29,872 nt of DNA, taken from positions 1-29,872 of IMG/VR virus record IMGVR_UViG_3300009164_000247. One strand, given 5' to 3'. This document shows positions 3,182-28,222 of the stretch, one piece after another; position 1 is the stretch's first letter; each line of letters starts with the position of its first letter. The stretch comes from a virus. The translations under genes were made by a program, and so were the position numbers. A model generated the notes under the pieces. That model did not search any database. It saw only the letters and a list, made by a program, of their open reading frames with translations, and had not been told where the DNA came from.

Positions 3182-6100
3182 ATGAGCTCCATTGATAGAC
3201 AAAATAACTTGCTGATTACTGAAGATTGGAAAAAGATTTACCAGTCTTTTAAAAATGCGGATTTCCAAAGCTATGACTTTGAAAACTTGCGCAGGACTAT
3301 GATTACCTATCTGCGTACAAATTATCCTGAAGATTTTAACGATTATATTGAGTCCAGCGAATACCTTGCTCTTGTGGATCTTATTGCGTTCCTGGGTCAA
3401 AGCATAGCTTTCCGTGTTGACTTAAATGCTCGTGAAAATTTCTTAGAACTAGCAGAACGCCGCGACAGTGTATTGCGGCTAGCCCGGCTAATCAGCTACA
3501 ACGCCAAACGTAATATCCCTGCTAACGGTTTATTAAAATTTACCACAGTTAGAACAACAGAAACTGTGGTAGACAGTAATGGACGTAATTTATCAGGACA
3601 AGTTATTACATGGAACGACCCAAGTAATACCAACTGGTTAGATCAATTTACTAAAATTATGAACGCCGCAATGCCCGCAACACAGCAGTTTGGGAATCCA
3701 TCAGCTAAAGCAGACATTTACGGTATTCCAACAAGTCAATATAGATTCCAAGGGTCAAACACTGATGTACCAGTATACTCTTTCTCAAAATCAGTAGCAG
3801 GCAAATCTATGAATTTTGAAATTACCAGCACAACTATCAGTGGTGAAGAATTCATTTACGAAGAAGCGCCAAAGGTTGGTAATAGCCCGGCATGCATTTA
3901 TAGAGACGACGGACATGGCGCTGCCAGTATCAATACAGGATTCTTTTTTAATTTTACACAAGGCACATTAAATGCCGGAGCATTTACAATCAGTCAGCCA
4001 AGTACAAATGAATCAATTGATATTGCAACACAAAATATTAATAATACGGATGTATGGTTATATAGATTAGATCAGAATGGTGCAGAAGCAGAGCTATGGA
4101 CCAAAATTCCAGAACTAACTGGAAACAATGTCATTTACAACAGTCTTAATAAAAGCATAAAAAATATATATGCAGTAGTTACACGAACAGGAGACGCAGT
4201 GAGCCTGGCATTTAGCGATGGCACATTTGGCACATTACCTCTTGGTGATTTCAGAACTTATTATCGTATCAGTAATGGATTATCGTATGTTATAAATCCT
4301 GCAGATATTAGAAATATTTCAATATCTATTCCTTATACTTCTCGCAAAGGCCAGAACGAAACACTGACAGTTACTTTAAGTTTAGTCAGTACAGTGTCCA
4401 ATGCAGAATCTACAGAAACTAATGCATATATCAAAGCAAATGCATCAGCAACTTATTATACACAAAATCGAATGATAACAGCAGAGGATTACAATATTAG
4501 TCCGTTGTCTGTAAATCAGCAAGTTGCCAAAATAAAATCTGTGAACAGAACTTCTAGTGGTATTAGTAGATACTTTGATCTTAAAGACCCCACTGGAAAA
4601 TATAGCAGTACAAATTTATTTGGAAATGACGGAGTTGTATTTCAAGAATCCTATACATCACCTATGAAATTTAAATATAGTACTAAGGTAGATATTGAGG
4701 GAATTATATATAATAAAATTATTGATATAATTAAAAATCCAGATCTAAGAAATTTTTATTATTCAAATTTTATTAATTTTTTATCAACTAGTTTAAATAT
4801 TGTATGGTACAACAAAACATCTGACACCGCTTCAAGCACAGGCTATATTGGAGAATTAAATGATACACGACCATATCCTGTGGGTTCGTACACCTCAACA
4901 GATTTAAAATATTTAACGGCTAATTCTTTAGTAAAATTTACAGCACCAACCGGTTATTATTTCGATCTTGACAATAATAATGCTCTAATTTTTGGAGATG
5001 CCACGCTAGCTAACAGAGTGTCTTATGTATGGGCTCAAGTAGTATCAGTTAATGCAAACGGCACTGCCGCTGGAACTGGTACACTATCTAACGGACTTGG
5101 GCCAATTACTTTAAATCAAGTAATACCAACAACTGCTCAAATAACTCAGATTATTCCAAAATTATCCTTATCAATTTCTAGCTCGGTTATCACCGCCATG
5201 ATAGATTTAATATACAGTAACAGACCGTTTGGGTTAAGGTATGATGCAACTGATCAGAACTGGAAGATAATTTTTGAAAACAATTTAGATTCAACTTCAA
5301 GATTTAGTCTATCAAATCAAGGCAACAATTCTAATTTAAAAAACGACTCCAGTTGGATCTTATTATTTGCAACTGACAATGATTTTTATACTGTCACTAC
5401 CAGATTATTAAGATACGTATTTGAAAGCGATAATGAAATACGATTCTTTTTTGAAGATAATTCAACAGTTTATGATAATACAACTAATTCAGTAGTTAAA
5501 GATTCAATTAATATATTAAGCATTAATCCAAAACCTGGCCCAACTGGAAAACCATTTACACAGGATTTAAAATGGGATATTGTGTCGTCATTTAACGGAC
5601 TAGATGGCTATATTGATAATAAAAAAATAGTAGTATCTTTTCAAGATTCTGATAACAACGCTGTTGTTGACAATCCTCAGTTGTTTCTTGACATTGTTGA
5701 TTATGCAAATATTACAAATCCTTATATAGTACAAGAAAAATATGCTATCTCTGCAGGACAAAATGATTATCGTTATAGAAATAATGCAGATAATAAAGTA
5801 AGGTTTTTCTCAACGCAAGCCAGTGTGGGATCTTTATCAAACTATGCCAACGGCCAGTATTTTTATTTTGCTGATACTGGTGTTGTGAAACAATTAAATT
5901 TAACAAAATCAACATTAGTACCAACTTTAGATTATAAAGTGTATGTTGGTAGAGGCAATTTAAAATTTCAATATATCCACCGAGCAGATTATCAATCAAG
6001 AATAGATCCTGGCGCAAGTAATATAATGGACATATACGTTTTAACTAAAAGTTATGACACATTGTTCCGACAGTGGCTAGACGGATCAACAACAGTAAAA

Positions 6101-6634
6101 CCGTTGCCACCAAGCTCTGCTGAATTATATAATCTAATAGCACCTAAACTAAATCTAATTAAGTCTATAAGCGATGAAATTGTATACCATCCGGTAACAT
6201 ATAAATTATTATTTGGTGAAAATGCATCTGTTGATTTACAAGCTAGTTTTAAAGTTACAAAAAGTTTAAATTCAGTAGTGTCAGAAAACGATATTAAATC
6301 TCGTGTAATAACAGCAATTAATCAATTCTTTACTCTTGATAACTGGAACTTTGGCGATATATTTTATTTTACAGAACTATCAACTTATGTAATGACACAG
6401 CTTGCTCCTGATATCACTAATTTTATAATTGTACCAAGACAAGACGGTTCTTACTTTGGTAGCTTATTTGAAATAAAATGTCCAAGTGATCAAATTTTTA
6501 TTAGCAGTGCTACTGTAGACGATATTGAAATAATTACCGGAATAACTTCGGGGAATATTAAGTCAGTAACAGGCCAAGCACTTAGTGCAGTATCTTCACA
6601 AAATACAACAAGTTCAACATACGGAAATATCTAA
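3182..6634 (+). CDS. Baseplate wedge protein, gp6-like, enlarged
   Basis: In T4, gp6 dimers form the inner ring that ties the six wedges together around the hub. This 1,150-residue protein shows the typical N-terminus: an acidic/aromatic helix region with DWKKIYQSFKNADFQSYDF, then EYLALVDLIAFLGQSIAFRVD and LNARENFLELAERRDSV at residues about 57-105. It also shows a typical C-terminus at residues about 1020-1125, with NWNFGDIFYFTELSTYV, IIVPRQDGSYFGSLFEI and a TVDDIEIITGIT end. Between them lie about 900 residues of beta-rich sequence, so it is far longer than T4 gp6 (about 660 residues). It has its own late-promoter-like box upstream. Its TAA stop overlaps the ATG of the giant gene by one base (TAATG), which fits co-translation of two wedge components. 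The identity as gp6 is firm; the role of the long middle part is unknown. Confidence 0.9.
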   Translation: MSSIDRQNNLLITEDWKKIYQSFKNADFQSYDFENLRRTMITYLRTNYPEDFNDYIESSEYLALVDLIAFLGQSIAFRVDLNARENFLELAERRDSVLRLARLISYNAKRNIPANGLLKFTTVRTTETVVDSNGRNLSGQVITWNDPSNTNWLDQFTKIMNAAMPATQQFGNPSAKADIYGIPTSQYRFQGSNTDVPVYSFSKSVAGKSMNFEITSTTISGEEFIYEEAPKVGNSPACIYRDDGHGAASINTGFFFNFTQGTLNAGAFTISQPSTNESIDIATQNINNTDVWLYRLDQNGAEAELWTKIPELTGNNVIYNSLNKSIKNIYAVVTRTGDAVSLAFSDGTFGTLPLGDFRTYYRISNGLSYVINPADIRNISISIPYTSRKGQNETLTVTLSLVSTVSNAESTETNAYIKANASATYYTQNRMITAEDYNISPLSVNQQVAKIKSVNRTSSGISRYFDLKDPTGKYSSTNLFGNDGVVFQESYTSPMKFKYSTKVDIEGIIYNKIIDIIKNPDLRNFYYSNFINFLSTSLNIVWYNKTSDTASSTGYIGELNDTRPYPVGSYTSTDLKYLTANSLVKFTAPTGYYFDLDNNNALIFGDATLANRVSYVWAQVVSVNANGTAAGTGTLSNGLGPITLNQVIPTTAQITQIIPKLSLSISSSVITAMIDLIYSNRPFGLRYDATDQNWKIIFENNLDSTSRFSLSNQGNNSNLKNDSSWILLFATDNDFYTVTTRLLRYVFESDNEIRFFFEDNSTVYDNTTNSVVKDSINILSINPKPGPTGKPFTQDLKWDIVSSFNGLDGYIDNKKIVVSFQDSDNNAVVDNPQLFLDIVDYANITNPYIVQEKYAISAGQNDYRYRNNADNKVRFFSTQASVGSLSNYANGQYFYFADTGVVKQLNLTKSTLVPTLDYKVYVGRGNLKFQYIHRADYQSRIDPGASNIMDIYVLTKSYDTLFRQWLDGSTTVKPLPPSSAELYNLIAPKLNLIKSISDEIVYHPVTYKLLFGENASVDLQASFKVTKSLNSVVSENDIKSRVITAINQFFTLDNWNFGDIFYFTELSTYVMTQLAPDITNFIIVPRQDGSYFGSLFEIKCPSDQIFISSATVDDIEIITGITSGNIKSVTGQALSAVSSQNTTSSTYGNI

Positions 6635-9600
6635 TGACTGATTTTACAAATCCATCGGGCTCTAAAGGACTTAGCGTAAATTTAATACCTAACTTTTTTA
6701 AAACAGATGCTAACAAAAGATTTTTACAAGCTACAATTGATCAACTAGTAACACCTGGAGCTGTCAAAAAAGTTAATGGTTTTGTAGGAAGACAATACTC
6801 TAAATCAACCAGCGGGACAGATTTATTTGTTGAAGCCACTGATACTATCCGACAAAATTACCAGTTAGAACCATCGTTAACTGTGCAAGATACATTAGGT
6901 AACAACACATTTTTTAAAGATTACATAGACTATATTAATCAGCTAGAAGTGTTTGGAGCTAATACAGCTAATCATGCAAGGCTTAATAAGCAAGAATTCT
7001 ATTCATGGAACCCGCATATTGATTGGGACAAATTTGTTAATTTCCAAAATTACTACTGGTTATCCTATGGCCCTAGCACCATTACAATTTACGGTCAGCA
7101 ATTAACTGCGGAAAGCACATATAAAATTTCTTTAGAGTACCAAGGTCAAAATAATCAATATGTTTTTACTCCAGACGGATTAACACCAAACCCTTCAATA
7201 CGACTTTATAGAGGACAGACTTATAAATTTATTGTATCCAGTCCAGGCAATCCAATCAGTATCAAAACTGCTAGGTCTTTAGGCATTACCGACCGATATG
7301 TGATTTCAGGCATTGATGCTTACGGCGTTGAGAACGGCGTAATAACTGTAGTAATTCCAGTAAATTCGCCAAATGTTTTGTATTATCAAAGCGAAACTGA
7401 TATCAATTTAGGTGGTGTCTTTGAAATATATGATATAGATGAAAATTCTTTTATCAACGTTGCAACAGATATTTTAGGAAAAATTACATATACATTGAGT
7501 AATGGAGTTGAATTGTCTAACGGTATGAAAGTGTCGTTTGGCGGCCAAGTTTTTCCTTTGGAATATGCAACCGGCGAATACTATGTTGAAGGGGTAGGCA
7601 CGGCAATTAAATTAATTGAAAAATCTATTTTAGAAATTTCTACAACCTATACAGAATCTGAAACATTATTATTTGATTCAAATAACTTTGATACAGATGC
7701 ATTTAGTGATTCAACCGGCTTTGCAAAAACATTAGATTATATGGTTATTAATCGAGCCAGCCGAGACCATAACCCTTGGTCTAGGTATAATAGATGGTTC
7801 CACAAAGATGTAATAACTGCCAGCGCAACATTTAACAACACAACCGCATCGTTGGACCAGAGTCTTCGAGCAGTACGGCCTATTATTGAATTTGATGCTG
7901 ACTTAAAATTATTTAATTTTGGCACAGATGCCATAGCTGATATAGATTTGGTTGACTCGTTTACCACGGATGCATTTTCAACAATTGAAGGTAGCTTGGG
8001 ATACAGCATTGATGGTATTAGTTTATCAGCAGGTCAAAAAATCTTATTTTTATCAGATAATGATAGACTAGTTAAAAACAAAATTTTTAAAGTAGAATTT
8101 ATTGATGTCAGACACCTATCAAGTAACTCTAGACAAATTCATCTAGTAGAATTACATGCGCCGGTCATCAATGAAGTAGTATTAGTTAAACAAGGAAAAA
8201 CCAATCAAGGATTAATGTATTGGTTCAGCGGCACTACTTGGGTGCTAGCGCAACAAAAATCAGATACCAATCAATTTCCATTGTTTGATGTTGTTGACAA
8301 CAACGGAATTAGTTTTGGAAATTTAGAAAAATACGACGGTAGTACATTTAAAGGAACACAATTATTTTCCTATAAAGTTAATTCTAACGGGATTATTGAT
8401 ACCAATCTTGGGTTTGGATTATCTTATAGGAATATAGAAAATATAGGCGATATTGTTTTTAATTTTAATTTTGATACTGATACATTTTCTTATAAAAAAA
8501 TAACTAATATTATACCAAGCCCAATTAACACGGGATATTTACTTACAAAAGATTATGCAGGAAACACAGTTTATACAAATACATGGGAAAAATGTAATGC
8601 AAAAACAACTCAACCTGCTATTCGAATTTATAAAAATTCAAACACTGTTAATAATTTTAAATTAGATATTTTTGATAATGTGTTAGATCTTGCAGATTTA
8701 ATAATACGTGTGTATATTAATGGCAAACGTTTAGCAAGGGATCATTGGTCTGTAGCGGATAGTTCAGATTATAAAATTATAAAATTCAAAAACGATGCTT
8801 TGCCGACAGATGTTATTACAATTAAAGCATATGCTAATCAACCAATTAATAGTAATGGGTTTTATGAAATTCCTGTAAACTTACAACATAATCCTATGAA
8901 CAGTTCGGTATCGTCTCTGACATTGGGGGAAGTAATCGATCACGTTGATAGTATTGTTGATAATATCTACCAGGAGGATGCAGATAGCATAGAAGAAGTT
9001 GACTACGATCTAAAAACTAATCTTACGTTTATTGGCGTATTTCCGGGAGCAAGTAATTTACGAGATTTAGGTAATATTACTCCGTACGGTACAAAATTTG
9101 TTCAACACAGCGGCCCAGCAAGTATTTCTTTATATCACATTACAACTGATACTAATAATGTAATACGATCGGTGCAAGAAAGTAGAGACAAATATGTGCA
9201 ATTCAAAAAGAATTTCTTAGCAGTTGCTTTAAATTTGGGAGTTGAAACAACTCCCGCAAAGCAGGTTGATTTAATATTAGAAAAGATTAATAAAGATTAT
9301 TCAAAGAATAATTCATATTATTTTAGTGATATGGTTCCGTATCGAGCCAGCACAACAACTAATATTACTGTAGTTGATGCTCGTATAAAAACATATCCTT
9401 TAAAGACAGCATTTACTTTGGACATATTGTCTAGTAGGGCAGTTATTGTTTATGTTAATAATGAACAATTAATTTATAAGAAAGATTATTATTTTAGCGA
9501 GCAAGGATTTGTTGTCATCTCAATAAACTTAAATGAACGTGATGTTATAACTATTTCTGAATATGAAAGTACAGACGGCTCGTATGTTCCTGAAACTCCT

Positions 9601-12600
9601 ACAAAATTAGGCATGTGGCCAAAATATGAGCCAAAAATTTATCTTGATACAACATTAGTCACTCCAAGATTGATGATACAAGGACATGATGGTAGCCATA
9701 TATTGGCTTATGGTGATTACAGAGATGGTATTATACTTGAACTAGAAAAACGAATTTTTAATAACATCAAAATAGAATATAACACAGAAATTTTTGATAT
9801 TGCAGAGTTGTTACCTAGCTATAATCGACCCGGTGACTATTCTCGTACAGAGTTCAATCAAGTACTGGCCCCGTCATTTTATCAGTGGTCATCATTAGTT
9901 GATAGAGATTTCACAAAGCCCTTGAGCTTTGACAGAAATAATCCGTTTACTTTTAAATACAGTTCTTTTAGTACACCAGACGGAAAAGAAGTTCCAGGTT
10001 ACTGGCGCGGAATTTATCAATGGATTTATGATACAGCTAGGCCTAATCTATGCCCGTGGGAAATGCTAGGATTTAGTTTAGAGCCAAGTTGGTGGCAAGG
10101 TTTATACGGCCCTGCACCATACACTAGTGATAATCTTGTAATGTGGAAAGATATTTCAGAAGGGTTTGTGAGAGAACCTGGCGTTCCTGCAATACAATTA
10201 AAGAAATATATTAAACCATTTTTAATAAAGCACCTGCCAGTTGATAACGAGGGTAATCTAGTTAACCCATTAGTTTCTGGATTTATAAATGGAACCATAA
10301 CATCAAATTCTCAAACAGATTTTATATTTGGTGATATTGGCCCTGTTGAAAATGCGTGGCGCCGCAGTAGTCATTATCCGTTTAGTGTAATACTAAGTGC
10401 AATTTTATTAAAACCAGCTGACACTTTTGGAAAATTATTAGATCGATCTAGAATTAAACGAAATCTATGCGGTCAACTAATTTACAGTGAGACAGGATTA
10501 CGAATCAAATTATCGGATATTGTATTACCAAGCATTTATTCTAGTGAAAGTCGGGTGCAAACATCCGGCATTATTAATTACATTACAAATTATATTCTAA
10601 GTGATAATTTAAAATCATACAATAATTACATTTATGATTTGTCTTATTTGAACACACAATTGAGTCATAGGATTGGAGCATTCACAGCAAAAGAAAAATT
10701 TAAATTATTATTAGACTCTAAATCTCCAATCTCCACAACCAGTGTTTTTGTTCCGCCAGAGGATTATACACTAATATTAAATTCATCGTCTCCTATAAAA
10801 CGATTAGTTTACAGCGGAGTTATTATTAGTAAAATGGCTGATGAATATGAAATTAAAGGATATAGCAGGACTGCTCCTTATTTTAAATATTATCAATACC
10901 AGCAATCTGGAGCCACTATAAATGTTGGCGGCATTTCAGAAAGTTTTGTCATATGGACCTCGGGCGAGAAATATGCAACAGGTGCATTAGTTAAGTATAA
11001 TAACAAATATTTTAGATCAACAGCGACACATACTAGTGCAACTGCCTTTGACACATCATTTTATCAATCGTTGCCACGGTTGCCAGTGATTGGCGGCAGA
11101 GATGCAATACTTAGAAAATCTTGGGATAAATCTAATGTTAACGTAGCTCCTTACGGTACTAAATTTAGAGAAATACAAGATGTAGTTGATTTTCTATTAG
11201 GGTACGGCGAATATTTAAAAGATCAAGGATTTATATTTGATGAATTTAATCCAGTATTAAAAGCAGTTACTAACTGGGAAACTAGTGCAAAAGAATTTTT
11301 ATTTTGGACAACACAGAATTGGTCCAACGGCCAAGACAAATGGAAAGATTGGACTCCAGGCATACGTTTAAAATATGGTGATGTTGTTCGTTACAACGGA
11401 GATTACTATAAGTCTAACAAAGATACAACTTCCAGTATATTTTTAGAATCTGCATTTACAAAAATTGACGAGTTGACTAGTAATGGCGCCGCCGCAATAA
11501 GTTTAAGTCCATCAGCTGCCAAATTAACATTTAAAACAACATTAAGTGTGATAGATGATATTCGTAATCCTTTTAACGGATACGAAATTTTTAAAGTTGA
11601 CGGTACACCGCTTGAACCAAGTTTTATAAATTCTTTCAGGGAAGACAACGCAGTTAGTTATAGTCCACGTGGAGATGCTGGAATCTACGGAGCAACTTTT
11701 TATCTAATACAACAAGAGCACGTTGTTTTATTAAACAACAGCACAATTTTTAACGATACAATTTTTAAACCAGAAACGGGATACAAGCAAGACAGAATTA
11801 AAGTTTCTGGGTATGTTAGCACAGATTGGTACGGCGGTTTGGATATCCCAGGTTTTATCCTTGATGTGGCCAAAATACAAAACTGGACTCCGTGGGAAGA
11901 TTACGATTTAGGCGATATCATAAAGTATAAACAATTTTATTATACTGCAAGTAAATTTTTACCTGGTGCAGTATCGTTTGTTAACGAAGATTGGATATTG
12001 CTAGATAAAAAACCAACAACCCAGCTATTGCCTAACTGGACCTATAAAGCAGAACAGTTTACTGATTTTTATAGTTTAGATAGTGATAATTTTGACACAG
12101 CACAGCAAACGTTAGCTCAACACTTAATTGGTTACCAAAAAAGACAATATCTTACAAATATTATTAAAGATGATGTGAGCGAATTTAAATTCTACCAAGG
12201 AATGATACGTGAAAAAGGAACACAAAACAGTTTAAACAAATTGTTTGATGTAAAATCAGCCATGGGCGAAGAAAGTCTGACATTTTACGAAGAATGGGCA
12301 ATTAGAACAGGACAATATGGCGCCAGCGAAGCGTTTGAAGTTATTGAGTTTACATTAGACGAATCAAAAATTAGAAGTAACCCGCAAGGATTTTACTTAT
12401 CGGAGAACAGCGATGATCCTAACGATTTTATTATTACATACAACGCAAACCAATTATATTTAAAACCGGCTGGGTATGAATCAAATCCGTGGCCAGCGTT
12501 AAAAACATATCAACCTTATTTAAGAAGTGGTGGATATTTTAGATCGGATGAAGTATCCGTAACTTTATTTTCTTTAAATGACATATTATTAAAAAACCCA

Positions 12601-15600
12601 ACTGATTTTAAACCAAACTCTTATATAGCAGTTACCTTTGAAGGAATAAGTTGGAATGTGTATCGGTATGTGGATGCAAATGTTACGGTTACTGCGGTAG
12701 ATTACAATAATGTAACAAAAACATTAACTCTAACAGTAAATCAGTTAGTGGACTTTCCAGTAGGTTCTTATGTTGGAATTGACCAAGTTGATTTAATAAA
12801 AGGATTCTATAAAATCGTTGCTGTATCCTTGAATACATTCACAGTCTCTGCAACAATTTCAAGTTGGGCTCCTCCGTTCACACAATCAGAAAATTTAATA
12901 ATTTTTAAATTAGTTAGCCAACGCTCGTCATCTATGGATACTGTTGATAGTGTGGTTAGACCGACACTAACCAACGGCGACAAATTATGGATAGATTCTA
13001 ACAGCAATGGTAAATGGTCAGTGTGGGAATACTCGCCAGTTTACAGTAGAAAAACAATTCCAAATTCTTCTCCAATTGATGGTATAAATTACGGAAAAAT
13101 TATTTCTTCTACAAAGTTGGGAAAAATTATTGCAATTGGATCCAACACTGGCGAAATAGAACTATGGGATAAATCTGGATACAACTCTCAATGGATTCAA
13201 CGCCAACTAATTACTAAACCGTTTATTAGTTATTCTAGTAATACCGGAAAAATTGCTACCACTGTTGCACTATCGTATGATGGAAAATGGTTGGCAACTG
13301 GATCACCGTTAGCAAGCAATGCTTATACTAAGTTTAAAGGAACATTTATTGGAGGCAGCGGGTACGTTGCTGAAGATATAGTATACATAGATAACGTAGG
13401 GTCATACACTGGCTTTTATCAAGCATTGAGCAACAATAATGGAAACACAATGCCGCGCCCAGACGGAATTTCAGGAACAATTCCAAATGTTGCATACTGG
13501 AAAAAAATAAAATATGTTCCCACAGTCTTAAGTGGAACCAGCAATAGCTTAACAGCGCATGGCGTTATTAGTCTTTATAGCAAAGATGCCAATAATATTT
13601 TTACATTAGTTGATACTATAATCAGCCCATTCCCAACTGAAAATGAACAATTTGGATCTCAGCTAGCATTTGCTGATAATGCATTGTATGTGTCTGCAAT
13701 TGGACATAGTAGCAATACCGGAAGAGTTTATAAATTAAAATATTCAACAGATGTACAAGCATCCACATATTATAATCCTGTCGGAAGTTTAGGCACTGTA
13801 TTAAAGCTAACCTCCACAACCGGCATACTACCAGGTATGATTATTTCTGGCGGTGGCTTTACTTCAAATCAAACAGTAACATCTGTAATAGATCAAACTA
13901 CTATAACAATTTCACAACAGCCTGACACTACTCCAACAGCAATTATTAATTTTTCAATTGTAGGCTGGGGCTTTGATTTATCAGCAACTGTAACAGGTGA
14001 TGTTGTTGGACGACAATTTGGCGCCGGAATTGTAGCGACCGATAATGACAACACATTGGTTGTTTCGTCTAATAATGGTACATTATCTGGACAAGTTAAA
14101 ATTTATAAATCAGGAGTACTGTCGCAAACCATAACTGGTACAAATTTAAATTTTGGAAAAAGTGTTGACATTTCTGACAATGCCGATTATCTAGCAATTT
14201 CTGATAGTTTATCAACTAATGAAAAACCTAATTCGGGTATTGTAAATATTTACAAATTCACCCAATCCGCATATGTGTTGTATCAGTCATTAAAAAATCA
14301 CAAACCAGAAAACTCAGGATACTTTGGCAGTAAAATAGCCTTCATAGACAACTATAAAACAATAGTGGTATACAGTTCAGATGCAGATACTATTTTAAAC
14401 ACTACATTTGATGAAAATTCAACATTATTTGATAAAGAATCTACAAACATATCTCAAATAGCGGGCGAGTCGGGACGTGTTGATGTTTATGATATGTACG
14501 AAACCAAATGGATTTATAGCGAAACTTTAGAAAATTTACAAACAAGCGGCTCGGGTTTTGGTCAAGCAATTGCTACAGGTAATAATCATATTTTTGTAAC
14601 TGCGCCTTTTGAAACGGATCAAAACTTACAATCAGGTATTGTTATTGATTATGAAAAACGAGAAAATACATTTAGCTGGAATATCAAACATCAACAAATC
14701 GATATACCAGATGCTAAAAAAATCAAATCTGCATTTTTGTATAACAAAGCCACCGGCGAATTAATAAAATATATTGATGTTATTGATTTAGCACAAGGAA
14801 AAATTGCAGGAATTGCAAGAGAAGAAATTAAATATTCGTCTTATTATGATCCTGCAACGTATTCTATCAACACTAACAGCAGTGATATAACAGTGGACGC
14901 TGATGCTCCTTGGGGAAAAGCACAAGTTGGTCATGTTTGGTGGGACTTAAGAACTACTAAACTTGTTGATGCATACGATGATGAAATTGTATATAGAAAC
15001 AGCGTATGGAATTCTTTAGCGTTGGGAGCATCAGTAGATTTATACGAATGGGTTGAAAGTACGTTACTACCGGCCGCATGGGATGTACAAGCCGATACAG
15101 AAGCAGGAATTGCTAACGGAATCAGCGGAACTAGTTTATACGGAAACAATGTTTACTCTGTAAAAGAAAGATACGATACCTCGTCCCAGACTAAAAAATA
15201 CACTTATTATTATTGGGTAAAAAATAAAAAAACCATTCCAAATATAACAGGTAGAAATTTATCTGCCAGCGATGTTTCAAGTTTAATTGCAAATCCACGT
15301 GGCTCAAATTATACGTATATTGCATTAACAGCAACTAATTCTTTTAGTTTAATAAACGTATTACCGTATTTACAAGATACAAATGTTGTACTATCAGTTG
15401 AATACTGGATAGTGGATAACATATCACAAAATATCCATAGCCAGTGGAAAATTATCAATAATGATTCGCTAACAATAATTCCGCCTCAGATTGAACAAAA
15501 ATGGTTTGATAGTTTGTGTGGAAAAGATACCAGTGGCCGAGATGTTCCAGATTCTACATTGCCAGATAAAATTAGATACGGCGTTGAAAATCGACCGCGA

Positions 15601-18600
15601 CAGGGCATGTTTATAAATCGATTTGAAGCACTGAAACAGCTGGTTGAAGAAACAAACATTGTATTATTGAATAATCCAATAACTGAAAGTAGAAATATTT
15701 CAAATATTGATGTAAAAGATGCATACCCTAATAAAATATTAGGATTGTATGATACTATACAAAATACTTCGGAAGAATTAAGATTTGTCAACGTGGGCGC
15801 ATTTAAACGTCCAATTTTAAGCAATTGTATAATAGTTGATGGAAAAATTACAGGAGTCAATATAGCAAACCCAGGCCGCGGATACCTAGTTGCCCCTTAC
15901 ATTTCAATCTTAGGCACTGGCGAAGGAGCAATAGTACAAGCTGTATTAAACAGTAACGGCACCGGACAAGTTGTAGGAGTAACAGTTGTAAATGCAGGCG
16001 AAGGGTACGATGATAATACCATTGCATCAATTCGTGATTATTCAGTATTAGTGCAAACTGATTCAGAAGCACAAGGAGTGTGGAGTATATATTCTTATGA
16101 TCCAACAGGGAGAGTATGGTCTCGAACTAAATCACAATCATATGATGTAACAAAATACTGGAGTAAAACTGATTGGTATGCAACTGGCTATAATCAATTT
16201 ACAGCCATAGATCATGCAGTTGATATGGTATCAGACCTACAAACAACAAATGATTCAGTCGGGCAAATTATCAAAGTTCGAATTAATTCAACTGGTTGGT
16301 CGTTACTGGAAAAAATTTCAGATGTTGATTCGTTTGACTACACACAAATGTACAAAGTTGTTGGATTAGAAAACGGCACTGTGCAATTAAGCAACGCATT
16401 ATATTCAGCATCAAACATTAGCACTGGCTATGATGGAACCACATATGATGGTAATGCGTTTGATAACTATCCTAATTTAGAACTTCGTATTATTTTAAAC
16501 TCTTTGAAAAATGATATATTTGTTGATGATTTAAAAATACATTATTTAAATTTATTTTTTACTACAGTACGGTATGCATTAAGCGAACAAGTTTACTTAG
16601 ATTGGATTTTTAAAACAAGTTTTATCAAGGCCCGCCATAATGTTGGATCACTATCAACACCTGTTACTTATAACAATGATAATTTGACCAATTTTCAAGA
16701 TTACATAAATGAAGTAAAACCATTCAAATCTAAAATACGAGAATATGTCAGTAGTTATCAGTTAGTAGATTCCAATGAAACTATGGTTTCAGATTTTGAT
16801 TTGCCACCAATATATAGAAATAATGCAATAACAACAATAAACACAAGCGCAACTAACGGAACTATTTCTGCAGATGATGCTGTTATTAGACAATATCCTT
16901 GGAAAAATTGGTTAGATAATGTTGGATTTATTGTAACAGATATAAAAATTATTAGCGGCGGATCTGGATATATTTCAGAACCCGTGTTAACAATAAACAG
17001 CGATTCGGGTTCGGGAGCAACTGCTAGAGCTTTTTTCACAAACGGAATTATTAATAGAATCATATTGCTTACTTACGGATCGGGATATTTATCAGCACCC
17101 ACAGTTTCAATCTCAGGTGGGTTATCGGCAACTGGTGTAACTGCCAAAGCAGTGGCAATCATTGGAAATAGTGTGTCGTCTAACAGTCATCACGGTGTTG
17201 TTAGAACAAGTTTAATTAAAATAAAATTTGATAGAACAACAAGTTCTTATTTCTTTGTAGATTTAAAAGAAACTGAATTTATTAATACTACTGGAAATTT
17301 ACAATATAAACTTACATATGCTCCTGATACCACTATTGGAAATACAATTGTTACAATAAATGATGTTCCGTTATTAAGAGAAAATTACAAATTAACAACA
17401 GTTACTTCCACCACTGATTATACAAAGTATTCAGGATTAATAACATTCACAGCTGGAACACAACCTGCTACTGGAAAAATAATTAAAATTGTTTATTCAA
17501 AAAATCAGTTGCTATTAAATGCAGCCGACAGAATAAATCATTTCTACAATCCCCAAGACGGTGACATTGGAAAAGATTTATCACAGTTAATGACTGGTGT
17601 TGATTACGGCGGCGTAATAGTTCAAGGACTTGGCTTTGACGTCAGTGCCGGCTGGGGCACTATACCTTGGTTTACAGATAAATGGGACAGTTTTGATCCA
17701 TCATTTGATGATTATATTATAACAGTTTCGGCTAATAATCACGCTTTTACATTACCGTATGTTCCAACTAGCGGCACTAAAATTAATACTTATTATGTTG
17801 GTTTAAATTTAACTATCATACCAGTAGTAACAAATCAATTAACTTATACATACAATTATATTGGAGTCAACCCAACTGCTACATTAACTCGCAGTGTGGC
17901 AACAGGCGGCACAACATCAAACTACATACCAATTGGTATATATGATCCGGTATCTGTTGTTATAGCAGTCGCAAGTGTTACTGGAATTCTTCCAGGAATG
18001 TATGTGATAGGAACAGGATTTTTATCAAAACAACGAGTATTATCAATTAATACTAGTAGTAACACAGTTACATTAAGTGCGCCTCCTAATTTACAGCCTA
18101 ACGGAACTTTATATTTTACTAAAAGTATAGCAGGATCAACTACATTATCATTATCCAGCACCGCGGGGTTACAAGTAGGAGACGCCCTAGCAACTTCGGC
18201 AGCATCATCATTCGGTGTTGATACCGTTATTAATACCATTGTAAATAATACAGAAATTATTTTAAATCAAATAATTTATGTTACAGTTCCGTCTTCTGCA
18301 ACTATTATTTTTACTAGGCCGTTGAGAAAATACACTGATATAGTAATAACTAATGGGTTTGTAAATTTAACAACTCCGTTAGTGTCGGGTAGTGTAATTA
18401 ATATTTCAAGCACATTGCCCAGTATTAAACTAGATGATGAATATTTTGGAACACCTCAACAAACTAATACCAACGCAATAATAGCTACTTTTATTGGCAA
18501 CGGGATTGCAAACACAATAACAATACCAAATACATTTGTAGTATCTGCTGGCGACAAATTTATTCTTAGAAAAAGCACTAGTGATGGATCGCTAACTCCG

Positions 18601-21099
18601 CAAGACACTGATTACGATTCATTGGTAACTGGCGGTGATATGAACTATTCTACAGCATCGGGACTAGCGGCTGATGATATATTAATGGACGGTGATAACT
18701 TTGTTACGCCAACATCTAGTCCTGCACCGGAGGAAGTAGTCCCAGGGCAAGTGGTTGATGCAGTTGCAATTAAAGTATACGACCAGCCGCAGTCTGGATC
18801 TGCAAGCATCAAAGTTGATAATTTTATTGCTAACGGTTCTGCAACACAATTTAAACTGTCACAAAATCCAAGTAGTGCAGAATCGATAATTATTAAAAAA
18901 TCAGCCACTATTTTAAATTCTAATCAATACACACTTGATTATAGAAATAGAACAGTAACTTTAGTAGATGCGCCAACTGCCGGAGAAATACTAAGCATTT
19001 ATAATATTGGATTCAGCGGCAGCAATATTTTAGATATTGATTATTTTATTGGCGACGGACAAACAACTGAGTTTATTACCAAAGCTCCATGGTTGTCGGC
19101 AGTTACTCATATTGTTTATGTAGACGGCGTTGTTGCAACTCCGGTTTTATTCCAAACAGATGCAACCTATGAAACAGCTAACCGTGTTGCTTTGCAATTT
19201 GCAACACCTCCTGCTGTTAATTCTTTGATAAATTATGTAATTGTGTCAGGTAGCCAACAAACTTTTTCAATAACCAAAAAAGAAAAAATTGCAACAGACG
19301 GTAGATTTACTGTTGACCCAGCGACTGGTTTGTCTTCAGGCACATCGTCATATACACTAGCATACTCTGTAGGCAACAACTTACCAGCAGAAGCAAATAT
19401 GATTGTTCGGGTAAACCAAACAATTTTGTCATCACCAATCAGTACTTATTTTACAATAAAGAATAACAAATTAACTTACAAAGTTGATCCAACAAAAATT
19501 GTTCCGTACTCTACTCCTATCACAAATATCTTAGTTATTGTTGGTACTGAAATATTAAAATTAGGAACAGATTACACAGTTGATCCTGGCGGATTAACAA
19601 TTAAAATTAACAAAATTACCTACGCAATTCATGTTAATAAAACATTGGTAATCACAGTGAATTCTTCTCAAGGCTATATATACAATGCAATCAATAATAA
19701 TATTATATTTTCACAAGTTTACACCAGTAGCGATATAGTAGAAGTTGTTAGTTCGTACAACCATGATATTTTAGATATACAACGTACTGCGGTTACTATC
19801 AGCACCAACTTATCAATAACACAGAATACAGCTGAATATTACACTTATAAAGAATCATTGTCTGGGTTAATTGCCCTTGACAGAACTGTGATTTCTGATG
19901 AATATATCTGGGTAGTACAAAATGCCACATTGCTAGTGCCTTCTGTAGATTATAAATTAAATGATAACAAACAAAGTATACAATTGGCAATTAAGCCGGC
20001 TATCAACGACGTGTTTACTTTGATTACTTTTAGTAGTAATGTATTAGGATCAACAATTTCTTATATGCAATTTAAAGACATGCTAAATCGTGTGCATTTT
20101 AAGCGTCTAAGTCAAAATAAACAAACTCAGCTGTCACAACCGCTGGCATTTAACAGTACTACTATTGAAGTTGAAAATGCAAGTAATTTTGATGCTCCAA
20201 ACCCTTCTATCAATCGGCCTGGCATAGTTGAAATTAGGGGTGAACGAATTGAGTATTTTGGACTTGTTGGAAACACACTAAGCAAACTACGTCGAGGCAC
20301 ATTGGGTACAGGTATACCAACAATTCACCCCGCTGGCACTTTGGTGCAAGACATTGGCCCGTCAGAAACGCTACCGTATACTGAATCTTCTGTGATACAA
20401 CAAGTAGAATCAGACGGCTCCAGCATCATCAATTTAAATTTTGTTCCAGTAAAAGTTATAGAGAATGCAATAGATTTTACTATTAATCGACAATATAAAA
20501 TTGTTACATTGGGTACGACTGATTGGAATACAGTTGCCAACACAACAGGCATATTATATAATGTTGGAAATACTATTACTGTTATCAAATCAGCAACTGG
20601 TACAGGAACAGCAATAGCAATATCATACGGACAATGCGACGAACTTGAAGTTTTTATAGGCGGATATAATATTGACACTGTATGGAATAGTAATGTTGTT
20701 TATGCAACCGGTGATATTGTTATTTCAGGAAGTTACACATACCAAGCTAATTTTAATCATACTAGCAGTATATCTTTTAAAGAAGATTACAATACTGGAG
20801 CCTGGAAACTATTTGTTGGCAACACGCGATTGAAAAAGAAACCTTATAAAGTACATCACGAATTACAAAGTTCAAATTCGTTGTTAAATCCAACAAATTT
20901 TGACCAGTTGCTGGATGCTGAATTCACTGTAGATGGAACATCATCAGTTATTAAATTAACAAATCCGGTTGACATTGGAGTTAGGGTAACTGTAGTTAAA
21001 AGAATGGGTATAGATTGGGATAGCACGTTAAATATACAATACGATTCGGGTGCTATAACTGAATTTTTAAAAGCAACCCCAGGTATCTGGTATTCATAA
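6634..21099 (+). CDS. Giant modular virion protein, 4,821 aa, in the gp7 position
   Basis: This is one uninterrupted reading frame, roughly 520-530 kDa. It starts at an ATG overlapping the gp6-like stop, with GGAA 7 bases upstream. Its place after gp6 matches gene 7 (baseplate wedge) of T4, but I see no convincing gp7 similarity. Modules seen in order are: a family N-terminus (NLIPNFFKTDANKRFL), a cupredoxin-like domain (residues about 186-268), long conserved stretches containing PGYWRGIYQWIYDTARP and FYQGMIREKGTQNS, three carbohydrate-binding-like modules (1441-1793), and a beta-propeller-like region (about 2153-2675). These are followed by a conserved ENRPRQGMFINRFEAL segment, two GxGY modules, small fibre-type modules (about 3768-4304), MQFKDMLNRVHFKRL, a GTTDW module and a last carbohydrate-binding-like module (4684-4729). 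No catalytic motif, signal peptide or membrane segment is evident. I infer a baseplate or tail-fibre scaffold with possible host-surface contacts. Relatives are typical of marine T4-like phages, where they are annotated only as virion structural proteins. Confidence 0.85.
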   Translation: MTDFTNPSGSKGLSVNLIPNFFKTDANKRFLQATIDQLVTPGAVKKVNGFVGRQYSKSTSGTDLFVEATDTIRQNYQLEPSLTVQDTLGNNTFFKDYIDYINQLEVFGANTANHARLNKQEFYSWNPHIDWDKFVNFQNYYWLSYGPSTITIYGQQLTAESTYKISLEYQGQNNQYVFTPDGLTPNPSIRLYRGQTYKFIVSSPGNPISIKTARSLGITDRYVISGIDAYGVENGVITVVIPVNSPNVLYYQSETDINLGGVFEIYDIDENSFINVATDILGKITYTLSNGVELSNGMKVSFGGQVFPLEYATGEYYVEGVGTAIKLIEKSILEISTTYTESETLLFDSNNFDTDAFSDSTGFAKTLDYMVINRASRDHNPWSRYNRWFHKDVITASATFNNTTASLDQSLRAVRPIIEFDADLKLFNFGTDAIADIDLVDSFTTDAFSTIEGSLGYSIDGISLSAGQKILFLSDNDRLVKNKIFKVEFIDVRHLSSNSRQIHLVELHAPVINEVVLVKQGKTNQGLMYWFSGTTWVLAQQKSDTNQFPLFDVVDNNGISFGNLEKYDGSTFKGTQLFSYKVNSNGIIDTNLGFGLSYRNIENIGDIVFNFNFDTDTFSYKKITNIIPSPINTGYLLTKDYAGNTVYTNTWEKCNAKTTQPAIRIYKNSNTVNNFKLDIFDNVLDLADLIIRVYINGKRLARDHWSVADSSDYKIIKFKNDALPTDVITIKAYANQPINSNGFYEIPVNLQHNPMNSSVSSLTLGEVIDHVDSIVDNIYQEDADSIEEVDYDLKTNLTFIGVFPGASNLRDLGNITPYGTKFVQHSGPASISLYHITTDTNNVIRSVQESRDKYVQFKKNFLAVALNLGVETTPAKQVDLILEKINKDYSKNNSYYFSDMVPYRASTTTNITVVDARIKTYPLKTAFTLDILSSRAVIVYVNNEQLIYKKDYYFSEQGFVVISINLNERDVITISEYESTDGSYVPETPTKLGMWPKYEPKIYLDTTLVTPRLMIQGHDGSHILAYGDYRDGIILELEKRIFNNIKIEYNTEIFDIAELLPSYNRPGDYSRTEFNQVLAPSFYQWSSLVDRDFTKPLSFDRNNPFTFKYSSFSTPDGKEVPGYWRGIYQWIYDTARPNLCPWEMLGFSLEPSWWQGLYGPAPYTSDNLVMWKDISEGFVREPGVPAIQLKKYIKPFLIKHLPVDNEGNLVNPLVSGFINGTITSNSQTDFIFGDIGPVENAWRRSSHYPFSVILSAILLKPADTFGKLLDRSRIKRNLCGQLIYSETGLRIKLSDIVLPSIYSSESRVQTSGIINYITNYILSDNLKSYNNYIYDLSYLNTQLSHRIGAFTAKEKFKLLLDSKSPISTTSVFVPPEDYTLILNSSSPIKRLVYSGVIISKMADEYEIKGYSRTAPYFKYYQYQQSGATINVGGISESFVIWTSGEKYATGALVKYNNKYFRSTATHTSATAFDTSFYQSLPRLPVIGGRDAILRKSWDKSNVNVAPYGTKFREIQDVVDFLLGYGEYLKDQGFIFDEFNPVLKAVTNWETSAKEFLFWTTQNWSNGQDKWKDWTPGIRLKYGDVVRYNGDYYKSNKDTTSSIFLESAFTKIDELTSNGAAAISLSPSAAKLTFKTTLSVIDDIRNPFNGYEIFKVDGTPLEPSFINSFREDNAVSYSPRGDAGIYGATFYLIQQEHVVLLNNSTIFNDTIFKPETGYKQDRIKVSGYVSTDWYGGLDIPGFILDVAKIQNWTPWEDYDLGDIIKYKQFYYTASKFLPGAVSFVNEDWILLDKKPTTQLLPNWTYKAEQFTDFYSLDSDNFDTAQQTLAQHLIGYQKRQYLTNIIKDDVSEFKFYQGMIREKGTQNSLNKLFDVKSAMGEESLTFYEEWAIRTGQYGASEAFEVIEFTLDESKIRSNPQGFYLSENSDDPNDFIITYNANQLYLKPAGYESNPWPALKTYQPYLRSGGYFRSDEVSVTLFSLNDILLKNPTDFKPNSYIAVTFEGISWNVYRYVDANVTVTAVDYNNVTKTLTLTVNQLVDFPVGSYVGIDQVDLIKGFYKIVAVSLNTFTVSATISSWAPPFTQSENLIIFKLVSQRSSSMDTVDSVVRPTLTNGDKLWIDSNSNGKWSVWEYSPVYSRKTIPNSSPIDGINYGKIISSTKLGKIIAIGSNTGEIELWDKSGYNSQWIQRQLITKPFISYSSNTGKIATTVALSYDGKWLATGSPLASNAYTKFKGTFIGGSGYVAEDIVYIDNVGSYTGFYQALSNNNGNTMPRPDGISGTIPNVAYWKKIKYVPTVLSGTSNSLTAHGVISLYSKDANNIFTLVDTIISPFPTENEQFGSQLAFADNALYVSAIGHSSNTGRVYKLKYSTDVQASTYYNPVGSLGTVLKLTSTTGILPGMIISGGGFTSNQTVTSVIDQTTITISQQPDTTPTAIINFSIVGWGFDLSATVTGDVVGRQFGAGIVATDNDNTLVVSSNNGTLSGQVKIYKSGVLSQTITGTNLNFGKSVDISDNADYLAISDSLSTNEKPNSGIVNIYKFTQSAYVLYQSLKNHKPENSGYFGSKIAFIDNYKTIVVYSSDADTILNTTFDENSTLFDKESTNISQIAGESGRVDVYDMYETKWIYSETLENLQTSGSGFGQAIATGNNHIFVTAPFETDQNLQSGIVIDYEKRENTFSWNIKHQQIDIPDAKKIKSAFLYNKATGELIKYIDVIDLAQGKIAGIAREEIKYSSYYDPATYSINTNSSDITVDADAPWGKAQVGHVWWDLRTTKLVDAYDDEIVYRNSVWNSLALGASVDLYEWVESTLLPAAWDVQADTEAGIANGISGTSLYGNNVYSVKERYDTSSQTKKYTYYYWVKNKKTIPNITGRNLSASDVSSLIANPRGSNYTYIALTATNSFSLINVLPYLQDTNVVLSVEYWIVDNISQNIHSQWKIINNDSLTIIPPQIEQKWFDSLCGKDTSGRDVPDSTLPDKIRYGVENRPRQGMFINRFEALKQLVEETNIVLLNNPITESRNISNIDVKDAYPNKILGLYDTIQNTSEELRFVNVGAFKRPILSNCIIVDGKITGVNIANPGRGYLVAPYISILGTGEGAIVQAVLNSNGTGQVVGVTVVNAGEGYDDNTIASIRDYSVLVQTDSEAQGVWSIYSYDPTGRVWSRTKSQSYDVTKYWSKTDWYATGYNQFTAIDHAVDMVSDLQTTNDSVGQIIKVRINSTGWSLLEKISDVDSFDYTQMYKVVGLENGTVQLSNALYSASNISTGYDGTTYDGNAFDNYPNLELRIILNSLKNDIFVDDLKIHYLNLFFTTVRYALSEQVYLDWIFKTSFIKARHNVGSLSTPVTYNNDNLTNFQDYINEVKPFKSKIREYVSSYQLVDSNETMVSDFDLPPIYRNNAITTINTSATNGTISADDAVIRQYPWKNWLDNVGFIVTDIKIISGGSGYISEPVLTINSDSGSGATARAFFTNGIINRIILLTYGSGYLSAPTVSISGGLSATGVTAKAVAIIGNSVSSNSHHGVVRTSLIKIKFDRTTSSYFFVDLKETEFINTTGNLQYKLTYAPDTTIGNTIVTINDVPLLRENYKLTTVTSTTDYTKYSGLITFTAGTQPATGKIIKIVYSKNQLLLNAADRINHFYNPQDGDIGKDLSQLMTGVDYGGVIVQGLGFDVSAGWGTIPWFTDKWDSFDPSFDDYIITVSANNHAFTLPYVPTSGTKINTYYVGLNLTIIPVVTNQLTYTYNYIGVNPTATLTRSVATGGTTSNYIPIGIYDPVSVVIAVASVTGILPGMYVIGTGFLSKQRVLSINTSSNTVTLSAPPNLQPNGTLYFTKSIAGSTTLSLSSTAGLQVGDALATSAASSFGVDTVINTIVNNTEIILNQIIYVTVPSSATIIFTRPLRKYTDIVITNGFVNLTTPLVSGSVINISSTLPSIKLDDEYFGTPQQTNTNAIIATFIGNGIANTITIPNTFVVSAGDKFILRKSTSDGSLTPQDTDYDSLVTGGDMNYSTASGLAADDILMDGDNFVTPTSSPAPEEVVPGQVVDAVAIKVYDQPQSGSASIKVDNFIANGSATQFKLSQNPSSAESIIIKKSATILNSNQYTLDYRNRTVTLVDAPTAGEILSIYNIGFSGSNILDIDYFIGDGQTTEFITKAPWLSAVTHIVYVDGVVATPVLFQTDATYETANRVALQFATPPAVNSLINYVIVSGSQQTFSITKKEKIATDGRFTVDPATGLSSGTSSYTLAYSVGNNLPAEANMIVRVNQTILSSPISTYFTIKNNKLTYKVDPTKIVPYSTPITNILVIVGTEILKLGTDYTVDPGGLTIKINKITYAIHVNKTLVITVNSSQGYIYNAINNNIIFSQVYTSSDIVEVVSSYNHDILDIQRTAVTISTNLSITQNTAEYYTYKESLSGLIALDRTVISDEYIWVVQNATLLVPSVDYKLNDNKQSIQLAIKPAINDVFTLITFSSNVLGSTISYMQFKDMLNRVHFKRLSQNKQTQLSQPLAFNSTTIEVENASNFDAPNPSINRPGIVEIRGERIEYFGLVGNTLSKLRRGTLGTGIPTIHPAGTLVQDIGPSETLPYTESSVIQQVESDGSSIINLNFVPVKVIENAIDFTINRQYKIVTLGTTDWNTVANTTGILYNVGNTITVIKSATGTGTAIAISYGQCDELEVFIGGYNIDTVWNSNVVYATGDIVISGSYTYQANFNHTSSISFKEDYNTGAWKLFVGNTRLKKKPYKVHHELQSSNSLLNPTNFDQLLDAEFTVDGTSSVIKLTNPVDIGVRVTVVKRMGIDWDSTLNIQYDSGAITEFLKATPGIWYS
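7190..7440 (+). other. Cupredoxin-like domain without copper ligands (within giant protein)
   Basis: Residues about 186-268 follow the pattern RLYRGQTYKF, then a 'G-N-P-I-S-I' turn, then VPVNSPNVLYYQSETDINLGG. Plastocyanin-like domains in phage and bacterial surface proteins usually read 'RGxTYxF ... HP ... APxxLYYQCxxHxxMGG'. The four positions that would hold His, Cys, His and Met are N206, S253, D256 and L259 here. The fold is inferred from the pattern; the loss of ligands is directly visible if the alignment is right. Confidence 0.5.
10954..11079 (+). repeat. Carbohydrate-binding-like module 1 (giant protein)
   Basis: Residues about 1441-1482 read W-x5-Y-x-TGALVKYNNKYFRST followed by a Thr/His/Ser-rich loop. 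This matches the short aromatic pattern of CBM5/12-type (chitin-binding type 3) modules: W, Y, G-x-x-V-x-Y-x-x-x-x-Y. It is the first of several related modules in this protein; a sugar ligand is only inferred. Confidence 0.5.
11340..11475 (+). repeat. Carbohydrate-binding-like module 2 (giant protein)
   Basis: Residues about 1570-1614 contain DWTPGIRLKYGDVVRYNGDY followed by YKSN and a Ser/Thr loop. This shares the W...Y-GD-V-x-Y-x-x-x-Y-Y pattern with the module 260 bases upstream. Confidence 0.5.
11878..12012 (+). repeat. Carbohydrate-binding-like module 3 (giant protein)
   Basis: Residues about 1749-1793 contain NWTPWEDYDLGDIIKYKQFY followed by YTASKFLPG and, after a loop, EDWILL. It has the full aromatic pattern, including the closing Trp that these modules usually have. 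Confidence 0.55.
13351..13510 (+). repeat. Carbohydrate-binding-like module 4, set between propeller blades
   Basis: Residues about 2240-2292 read GGSGYVAEDIVYI, then an aromatic GFYQAL and a closing AYWKKI. The pattern is G-Y-x-x-x-D-I-V...F-Y-x-A...Y-W-K-K. It is a more distant match to the other modules and is placed between two propeller units. Confidence 0.4.
13755..13970 (+). repeat. TGILPGM-type fibre module, copy 1 (giant protein)
   Basis: Residues about 2375-2445 read LTSTTGILPGMIISGGGFTS followed by a 'TVTSVIDQTTITIS' strand. The same pattern returns at 17935-18117 (VASVTGILPGMYVIGTGF, then VLSINTSSNTVTLS) and in weaker form at 18121-18310. Modules of this kind are common in phage fibres. 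This copy lies between propeller units. Confidence 0.6.
15829..16040 (+). repeat. GxGY-type module, copy 1 (giant protein)
   Basis: Residues about 3066-3136 contain two 'N/G-x-G-x-GY' turns (VNIANPGRGYLVAPYISI and VTVVNAGEGYDDNTIASI) that bracket a 'GTGEGAIVQAV' strand. This is a small beta module seen repeatedly in large phage structural proteins. A second copy is at 16924-17170. Confidence 0.6.
16924..17170 (+). repeat. GxGY-type module, copy 2 (giant protein)
   Basis: Residues about 3431-3512 repeat the copy-1 pattern: IKIISGGSGYISEPVLTI, then SGSGATARAFF, then ILLTYGSGYLSAPTVSISGG. The two copies are about 900 bases apart and flank a conserved stretch containing YLDWIFKTSFIKARHNVG. Confidence 0.6.
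17935..18310 (+). repeat. TGILPGM-type fibre modules, copies 2 and 3 (giant protein)
   Basis: Residues about 3768-3892 hold two adjacent units. The first has VTGILPGMYVIGTGFLSKQ. The second is more divergent, with STTLSLSSTAGLQVGDAL followed by VINTIVNNTEIILNQ. Both keep the order: strand, 'G-hydrophobic-x-x-G-hydrophobic' turn, strand. Confidence 0.5.
18805..19545 (+). repeat. Tandem F-x-G-D/N-G beta modules (giant protein)
   Basis: Residues about 4058-4304 hold at least three successive units of about 75-80 residues. They run: 'DNFIANGSATQFKLS ... SNQYTLDYRNRTVTLVDAP', then 'DYFIGDGQTTEFITK ... VALQFATPPAVNSLINYVIV', then a weaker third unit 'TSSYTLAYSVG ... NNKLTYKVDP'. Each begins with F-x-(A/G)-(D/N)-G-x-x-T-x-F and ends with an 'aP..g..i...y' strand. 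They look like stacked immunoglobulin-size fibre domains. An earlier, weaker copy (ATFIGNGIANTITIPNTF) starts near 18486, followed by an acidic Pro-rich link reading APEEVVPGQVVDAVAIKVYD. Confidence 0.5.
20470..20640 (+). repeat. GTTDW-type module (giant protein)
   Basis: Residues about 4613-4669 read YKIVTLGTTDWNTVANTTG, then YNVGNTITVIKSATGTGTA. This follows the recurrent phage module 'Y.I...GTTDF..vGA....G..F.at..gtGtG'. It links the conserved MQFKDMLNRVHFKRL part to the last carbohydrate-binding-like module. Confidence 0.6.
20683..20820 (+). repeat. Carbohydrate-binding-like module 5 (giant protein C-terminus)
   Basis: Residues about 4684-4729 read WNSNVVYATGDIVISGSYTY, then QANFNHTSS and a closing GAWKLFVG. 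This is the clearest copy of the W...Y..GD-I-V...Y-x-Y-x-A...W pattern and lies about 90 residues before the end of the protein. Confidence 0.6.
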
Positions 21100-21783: not shown

Positions 21784-21786
21784 CGA

Positions 21787-25742: not shown

Positions 25743-25753
25743 CATCAAACTAG

Positions 25754-25761
25754 TATAAATA
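25754..25761 (+). promoter_or_regulatory. T4-type late promoter box TATAAATA
   Basis: This is an exact match to the T4 late promoter box, in the 41-base gap before the third fibre gene, ending 22 bases before its ATG. AAGGAA at 25769-25774 serves as the ribosome binding site. Confidence 0.7.
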
Positions 25762-25783
25762 ATGAAATAAGGAAAAGAGCGCA

Positions 25784-27259: not shown

Positions 27260-27269
27260 AGGGAATCAC

Positions 27270-28151: not shown

Positions 28152-28167
28152 TCTTTGTGTGAATCAC

Positions 28168-28188
28168 AGTATCCTCAGCACCGATACT
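28168..28188 (+). terminator. Possible weak terminator hairpin
   Basis: AGTATC and GATACT form a 6-base-pair stem around a 9-base loop, followed by TT and then A-rich DNA. It lies between the stop at 28151 and the next late-promoter-like box. The stem is short and the T-run is poor, so it may have no function. Confidence 0.25.
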
Positions 28189-28193
28189 TTAAT

Positions 28194-28201
28194 AATAAAT
28201 A
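28194..28201 (+). promoter_or_regulatory. T4-type late promoter box AATAAATA
   Basis: AATAAATA followed by CATA ends 21 bases before the ATG at 28223. It is the same octamer as before the gp6-like gene. AAGGGA at 28212-28217 is the ribosome binding site. Confidence 0.6.
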
Positions 28202-28222
28202 CATACATAATAAGGGACAATA

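Follow-up and report, generated by a model that had tools for sequence, protein, structure and literature searches.

What does a single open reading frame encode that takes up almost half of a viral DNA record of 29,872 nucleotides (IMG/VR record IMGVR_UViG_3300009164_000247, positions 1 to 29,872; hereafter, the window), and does its product represent a new kind of virion protein or a greatly enlarged form of a known baseplate component? The genomic setting, the relatives of the protein, and its modular composition each contribute to an answer, in which the best supported reading is that of a protein equivalent to gp7 of phage T4.

An intact giant gene behind gp6

The giant gene lies at positions 6634-21099 on the + strand, as do the other features mapped up to position 21783, and runs from ATG to TAA as an uninterrupted frame of 4,821 codons with 0 internal stops, corresponding to a protein of 4,821 residues and 535 kDa. 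It covers 14,466 of the 29,872 bases (48%), in agreement with the original prediction of an intact 14.5 kb frame filling about half of the window. As a virus record of 29.9 kb, the window is possibly a fragment, which leaves some room for an assembly artefact or a chimeric frame; however, this explanation is almost certainly wrong, as it is contradicted by colinear genes in phage isolates and by closely similar intact copies elsewhere. Over residues 960-1945, an intact 4,841-codon copy on a second contig (L008/G002) has 96% identity, and an intact 4,829-codon copy on a contig of 356 kb (L024/G001) has 84%. Since these copies come from independent contigs, the giant frame is not an assembly join, and the gene is real and intact.

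The giant gene is preceded by genes for a gp5-like hub/spike protein with an OB domain (1160-2683; PF04717, phrog_13211), a gp25-like baseplate wedge or sheath initiator protein (2692-3135; PF04965, E=2e-10), and a gp6-like baseplate wedge protein of 1,150 aa (3182-6634; phrog_10646 with 994 bits, and phrog_219, the T4 gp6 family, with E=3e-15). The start codon of the giant gene is located inside the stop codon of the gp6-like gene (taATG, 6632-6636), and the location in the gp7 position is thus as originally described, T4 gp7 (1,032 aa) likewise following gp6. The giant gene comes after gp6 in almost all relatives, and at 232 loci the distance between the end of the gp6 match and the start of the giant frame has a median of 12 nt. 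The order of gp6, giant gene, and a downstream gene of 204 aa (21169-21783; phrog_11259, function unknown; 31-56% identity in jumbo-phage relatives) is also found in PA5oct, Phosso, Atu_ph07, and Vibrio 2.275.O, with small genes interposed in some, and relatives of the 204-aa protein occur at the SCTP-2 and RaK2 loci as well. Salicola phage SCTP-2 is an exception in terms of gp6, its gp6 relative being ~92 kb from the giant gene; directly upstream of the giant homologue in this phage is a second giant ORF (gene 141, 3,096 aa; L005:5609-14899).

On the 3' side of the 204-aa gene, the window continues with a tail-collar fibre followed by more fibre-like proteins. Three consecutive fibre-like genes at 21787-27259 have a common N-terminal domain of ~80 residues (phrog_14394/phrog_15511) and look like a paralogous fibre array, while the adjacent genes of 293 aa and 529 aa at 27270-29812 are alike in their N-terminal halves, the 529-aa gene being extended at the C-terminus by repeats that match Ig weakly. 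No tRNA was found in the whole window, and a PADLOC run on three neighbours yielded no match.

A known family of giant proteins

Profile searches place the giant protein in phrog_10938 (annotated as 'virion structural protein'), with 1,026 bits distributed over five stretches, and its conserved blocks are colinear with those of the isolate members of this family. Relatives detected by tblastn are found in 60-64 isolate records, nearly all of them jumbo myophages, and scans of IMG/VR yielded at least 580 relatives per scan; a scan of IMG/VR based on Phosso found no relative. The original prediction suggested that the conserved stretches be compared with phage proteins and anticipated related virion structural proteins in marine T4-like phages. 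The search does reveal a known family; however, the nearest relatives are jumbo myophages of the RaK2, 121Q, PA5oct, and Atu_ph07 type and not marine T4-like cyanophages. The profiles of the cyanophage giant gp7 proteins (phrog_2885 and phrog_701) did not match, phrog_10938 alone being listed, and neither an NCBIfam search nor a phmmer comparison of the whole protein with PDB sequences produced a match.

The size of the giant protein was originally considered exceptional, as one of the largest proteins in a virion of this type, but it is ordinary within its own clade. Isolate members range from RaK2 ORF070 (3,326 aa), 121Q gp582 (3,323 aa), Vibrio 2.275.O (3,771 aa), and SCTP-2 (3,807 aa) to PA5oct gp355 (3,857 aa), Atu_ph07 gp180 (4,449 aa), and Phosso (4,555 aa). 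At 97 loci, complete homologous frames counted from stop to stop have a median length of 4,555 codons and extremes of 2,613 and 5,237, in a sample that is biased by the 80-best search rule, leans towards close relatives, and counts some contigs twice. The window gene is therefore of average size for the clade, in which the longest relatives have 5,237 aa or more and open frames extend to 6,444, and the proteins in the gp7 position of cyanophages are of 5,195-7,022 aa. The giant protein is thus large but typical of a virion protein family that is already known, and not a new kind of protein.

The annotation of this family is uneven. PHROGs assigns phrog_10938 to the category head and packaging, though its place beside gp6 points to the baseplate. 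For Klebsiella phage K64-1, the region of the giant gene appears as numerous small hypothetical proteins in the RefSeq record (NC_027399) and as a single one in AB897757, which is an annotation difference. ORF58 of Sinorhizobium phage AP-J-162 (4,455 aa) follows the 'baseplate wedge protein' ORF57 and is labelled only 'Structural protein' (PMC11242549). A study of RaK2 adsorption contains no mention of gp070 that could be found (PMC10253068), and for the giants of jumbo phages, the literature searched provides neither a solved structure nor an assigned role. The expectation that structure and role are undescribed is thus borne out as regards the role, in a family that is itself known.

Conserved blocks and inserted modules

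Comparison with distant relatives sets the limits of the conserved blocks along the protein, namely block A (residues 1-180; 6634-7173), block B (residues 360-905; 7711-9348), block C (residues 975-1560; 9556-11313), block D1 (residues 1621-1745; 11494-11868), block D2 (residues 1801-1945; 12034-12468), block E (residues 2675-3012; 14656-15669), and block F (residues 3137-3430; 16042-16923). Block C is the longest block common to all jumbo-phage relatives, and a further conserved block near the C-terminus (residues 4475-4564; 20056-20325) has 37% identity to the PA5oct relative.

Four modules along the chain resemble carbohydrate-binding modules. CBM5/12 module 1 (residues 1435-1487; 10936-11094) is contained in block C and occurs in 84 of the 115 relatives aligned, module 2 (residues 1561-1620; 11314-11493) is a clade-specific insert present in 29, and the CBM5/12-like module 3 (residues 1746-1800; 11869-12033) is an insert present in 98 and absent from distant relatives. 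Module 4 (residues 4676-4725; 20659-20808) was recognized by Pfam and internal-repeat comparison. PF02839 (CBM5/12) matches three stretches of the giant protein (E=2e-11), and VIA returns a fold match with Z up to 7.2 and an rmsd of 1.2 over 45 residues. Pfam alone gave no score to the piece with module 3, which was assigned by its self-similarity to modules 1 and 2 together with a match between model and PDB. By Pfam and by fold, these are CBM5/12 carbohydrate-binding modules, for which sugar binding is predicted.

The history of the first three modules was reconstructed on a FastTree tree of the 115 aligned relatives with the CBM columns left out. The fewest changes required are three for module 1 and one each for modules 2 and 3, so these modules are discrete insertions that are rarely gained or lost. 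The original prediction of conserved stretches alternating with mobile modules is accordingly upheld with respect to the alternation and to growth by module insertion but not with respect to mobility, as the traced CBM modules are stable. For modules 2 and 3, each with a single change, the tree gives no support to high mobility.

Other parts of the chain are variable or repetitive. Residues 1946-2680 (12469-14673) form a variable stretch with FG-GAP/propeller-like repeats, in which a match to FG-GAP_2 (E=0.003) falls below the Pfam cutoff; the equivalent interval in Phosso and Atu_ph07 is twice as long (~1,500 residues) and contains GGxGY repeats. Internal-repeat comparison also revealed a duplicated module, with a copy of 62 residues at 2380-2441 (M1; 13771-13956) that has 38% identity to a copy at residues 3764-3829 (M2; 17923-18120). 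A GGxGY module at residues 3065-3130 (15826-16023) is common to the giant gp7 proteins of cyanophages, and a pair of such modules lies at residues 3431-3520 (16924-17193); in the cyanophage giants, the GGxGY modules of both stretches are repeated many times.

Structures were predicted with AlphaFold2 for two pieces of the protein, residues 960-1945 (mean pLDDT 84) and residues 2674-3432 (14653-16929; mean pLDDT 89), the latter including block E. In Foldseek searches of the PDB, the first model mostly matched CBM modules, and the second, searched unsplit, had no match under E=0.2. Strong matches of the second model in BFVD are proteins of uncultured phages and of Atu_ph07 that seem to belong to the same family; the other BFVD matches are short ones of the repeat module. 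Residues 2674-3432 thus have a confident model without a close match among the solved structures searched. The T4 gp7 chain does not appear in the match lists of either model, an absence that does not speak for a different fold.

A probable gp7 equivalent and its alternatives

The relation to T4 gp7 is difficult to establish by ordinary comparison. The T4 gp7 domains PF21428, PF21427, and PF21456 (Gp7_helical, Gp7_5th, and Gp7_6th) and phrog_964, all of which match T4 gp7 itself as a control, have no match in the giant protein, which is therefore not filed in the T4 gp7 family. HMM-HMM comparison of whole blocks with the gp7 proteins of T4, IG49, and P-SSM2 matched only the GGxGY modules, to P-SSM2. 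A KGI/KGT hairpin, whose motif is FY..KG(I/T)..S...LFK.LY, links the cyanophage giants to T4 gp7 (HMM-HMM 92%) and in some of these giants coincides with a match to PF23786 (Baseplate_wedge). In the giant protein, a KGT helix hairpin at residues 1853-1878 (12190-12267), composed of FYQGMIREKGTQNSLNKLF (1853-1871) and the residues following it, is the candidate equivalent of T4 gp7 FYSTKGIEASYKFLFKVLY. Compared with the gp7 core profile, the FYQGMIREKGTQNSLNKLF block is the best of 190 windows (score 19.6, versus 13.8 for the next unrelated window), and in an overlapping test it is the best of 153 windows; the match is short, with a pairwise E of only 0.007-0.01. As a control, the gp6-like protein of the window and T4 gp6, which are homologues by profile, gave E=0.011 in the single-sequence test, no better than the KGT match. 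The profile of the N-terminal gp7 helix matches residues 10-42 best among 190 windows, weakly, and residues 91-148 in another test, and a search for cyanophage gp7 cores of greater diversity recovered only close relatives of the query. By these sequence comparisons, the evidence for homology to T4 gp7 is weak, while equivalence to gp7, as judged from position and core motif, is probable.

Mass spectrometry indicates where the members of this family are found. Table 1 of the phAPEC6 study lists gp245 ('hypothetical', 381.88 kDa), detected through 17 unique peptides at a coverage of 7.6%, as well as gp244 ('baseplate wedge', 131.18 kDa) (PMC7247149). The masses computed for family member 121Q gp582 and for 121Q gp583 are 381.87 kDa and 131.21 kDa, 121Q and phAPEC6 being isolates of the same species; the agreement between 381.88 and 381.87 kDa identifies gp245 as the equivalent of gp582. 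The record of PA5oct gp355 also carries an ESI-MS/MS mark. These detections place two relatives of the giant protein in virions, in support of the virion protein originally proposed, whether as an uncut chain or in pieces. At a coverage of just 7.6%, the phAPEC6 relative need not be intact in the virion, and this low coverage, together with the suspected cleavage of head proteins in RaK2 (PMC3622015), could be accommodated by a long precursor that a phage protease cuts into several virion proteins. Such processing is nevertheless most improbable, given that all relatives keep the conserved blocks along the whole chain in one frame and that cleavage of the giant protein is reported nowhere in the literature searched.

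The order gp25-gp6-giant gene, the rank of the KGT block as best window, the presence of relatives in virions, and the membership in phrog_10938 together argue that the product of the giant gene is likely the baseplate wedge protein equivalent to gp7 in a jumbo myophage of the RaK2/PA5oct type. The missing gp7 Pfam match, the null result of the whole-block HMM-HMM comparison, the distant gp6 of SCTP-2, and the head and packaging label in PHROGs count against this reading. The lack of a clear sequence match to T4 gp7, the broken gp6 linkage in SCTP-2, and the elaborate fibres borne by RaK2-type phages (PMC3622015, PMC10253068) would also suit a jumbo-specific peripheral baseplate or whisker scaffold that follows gp6 by chance, another small protein completing the wedge core; this seems unlikely, however, as the coupling to gp6 is conserved in most relatives, the position equals that of gp7 in T4 and in cyanophages, and the best window against the gp7 core profile is the KGT hairpin. 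Several wedge or fibre proteins fused into one chain (gp7 with gp8, gp9, gp10, or gp11) might explain that the genes at 21169-29812 match no gp8, gp9, or gp11 family and that the GGxGY module is also present in a cyanophage gp10-like protein. This is quite improbable, since none of the blocks matched T4 gp8, gp9, gp10, gp11, or gp12 when all were compared by HMM (best E 0.07), a result on which a gp8-gp12 fusion was rejected, and cyanophages with still larger proteins in the gp7 position retain separate gp8 and gp9 genes.

The core bundle and trifurcation of the wedge in T4, XM1, and the T6SS are built from two gp6/TssF chains together with a single gp7/TssG chain (PMC10457771, PMC6300606). 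As a gp7 equivalent, the giant protein would join two copies of the upstream gp6-like protein in a (gp6)2-gp7 heterotrimer at the base of the baseplate, with one giant chain per wedge and six per virion by analogy with T4. A short core, consisting of the N-terminal helix and the KGT hairpin near residue 1860, may anchor the protein in the wedge, while the ~1,800 residues between helix and hairpin, along with the later domains, may form the outer baseplate rim, where the CBM5/12 and propeller-like modules could bind surface glycans or dock fibres. More tentatively, it is conceivable, though somewhat doubtful, that with a gp7 core split in this way a single chain supplies both the inner wedge and most of a glycan-binding outer rim that replaces T4 gp8, gp9, and gp11, and that cyanophage gp7 was inflated independently at the same point, where the insert is of ~150 residues in P-SSM2 and ~620 in Syn33. 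Should the giants prove to be inflated gp7 equivalents, a large unannotated part of the virion would be named, the head and packaging label corrected, and a testable rule suggested, namely that insertion at a single permissive site is how wedge proteins become larger. The family itself is already known, and what merits testing is gp7 equivalence with a core that is both split and inflated.

Comparison with known systems

Giant proteins following gp6 exist in both jumbo phages and T4-like marine cyanophages. The isolate members of phrog_10938 resemble the window protein in the colinearity of blocks A-F, the placement after gp6, and, in most, the 204-aa gene downstream. In the window protein, by contrast, two CBM inserts are specific to its clade, the interval of residues 1946-2680 differs, and the C-terminal half has diverged; it is 270-1,500 aa longer than the members from PA5oct, 121Q/phAPEC6, RaK2, Atu_ph07, and Phosso. 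With T4 gp7, it has in common the gene position after gp6 and, as a candidate, the KGT/KGI helix hairpin, which is the best-scoring match; it is more than four times longer, with the candidate hairpin at residue 1,853 as opposed to ~735 in T4 gp7.

The giant gp7 or 'baseplate wedge initiator' proteins of cyanophages (phrog_2885) are similar in position after gp6, giant size, and GGxGY modules, and include the gene annotated as gp7 in P-SSM2 (5,195 aa; same gp25/gp6/gp7 order) and those following gp6 in Syn33 (6,376 aa), ACG-2014d (6,817 aa), and S-MbCM6 (7,022 aa); they have no clear full-length homology to the window protein and other insert content. A 498-codon frame in Variovorax phage V45v66 (L100:11689-13182) has a gp7-like KGT core (PF23786) followed by GGxGY-type repeats. 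At the other extreme of size are the minimal gp7 equivalents XM1 gp17, with only 242 residues, and TssG, which are set beside the giant protein by their proposed common role as the third chain of the wedge heterotrimer.
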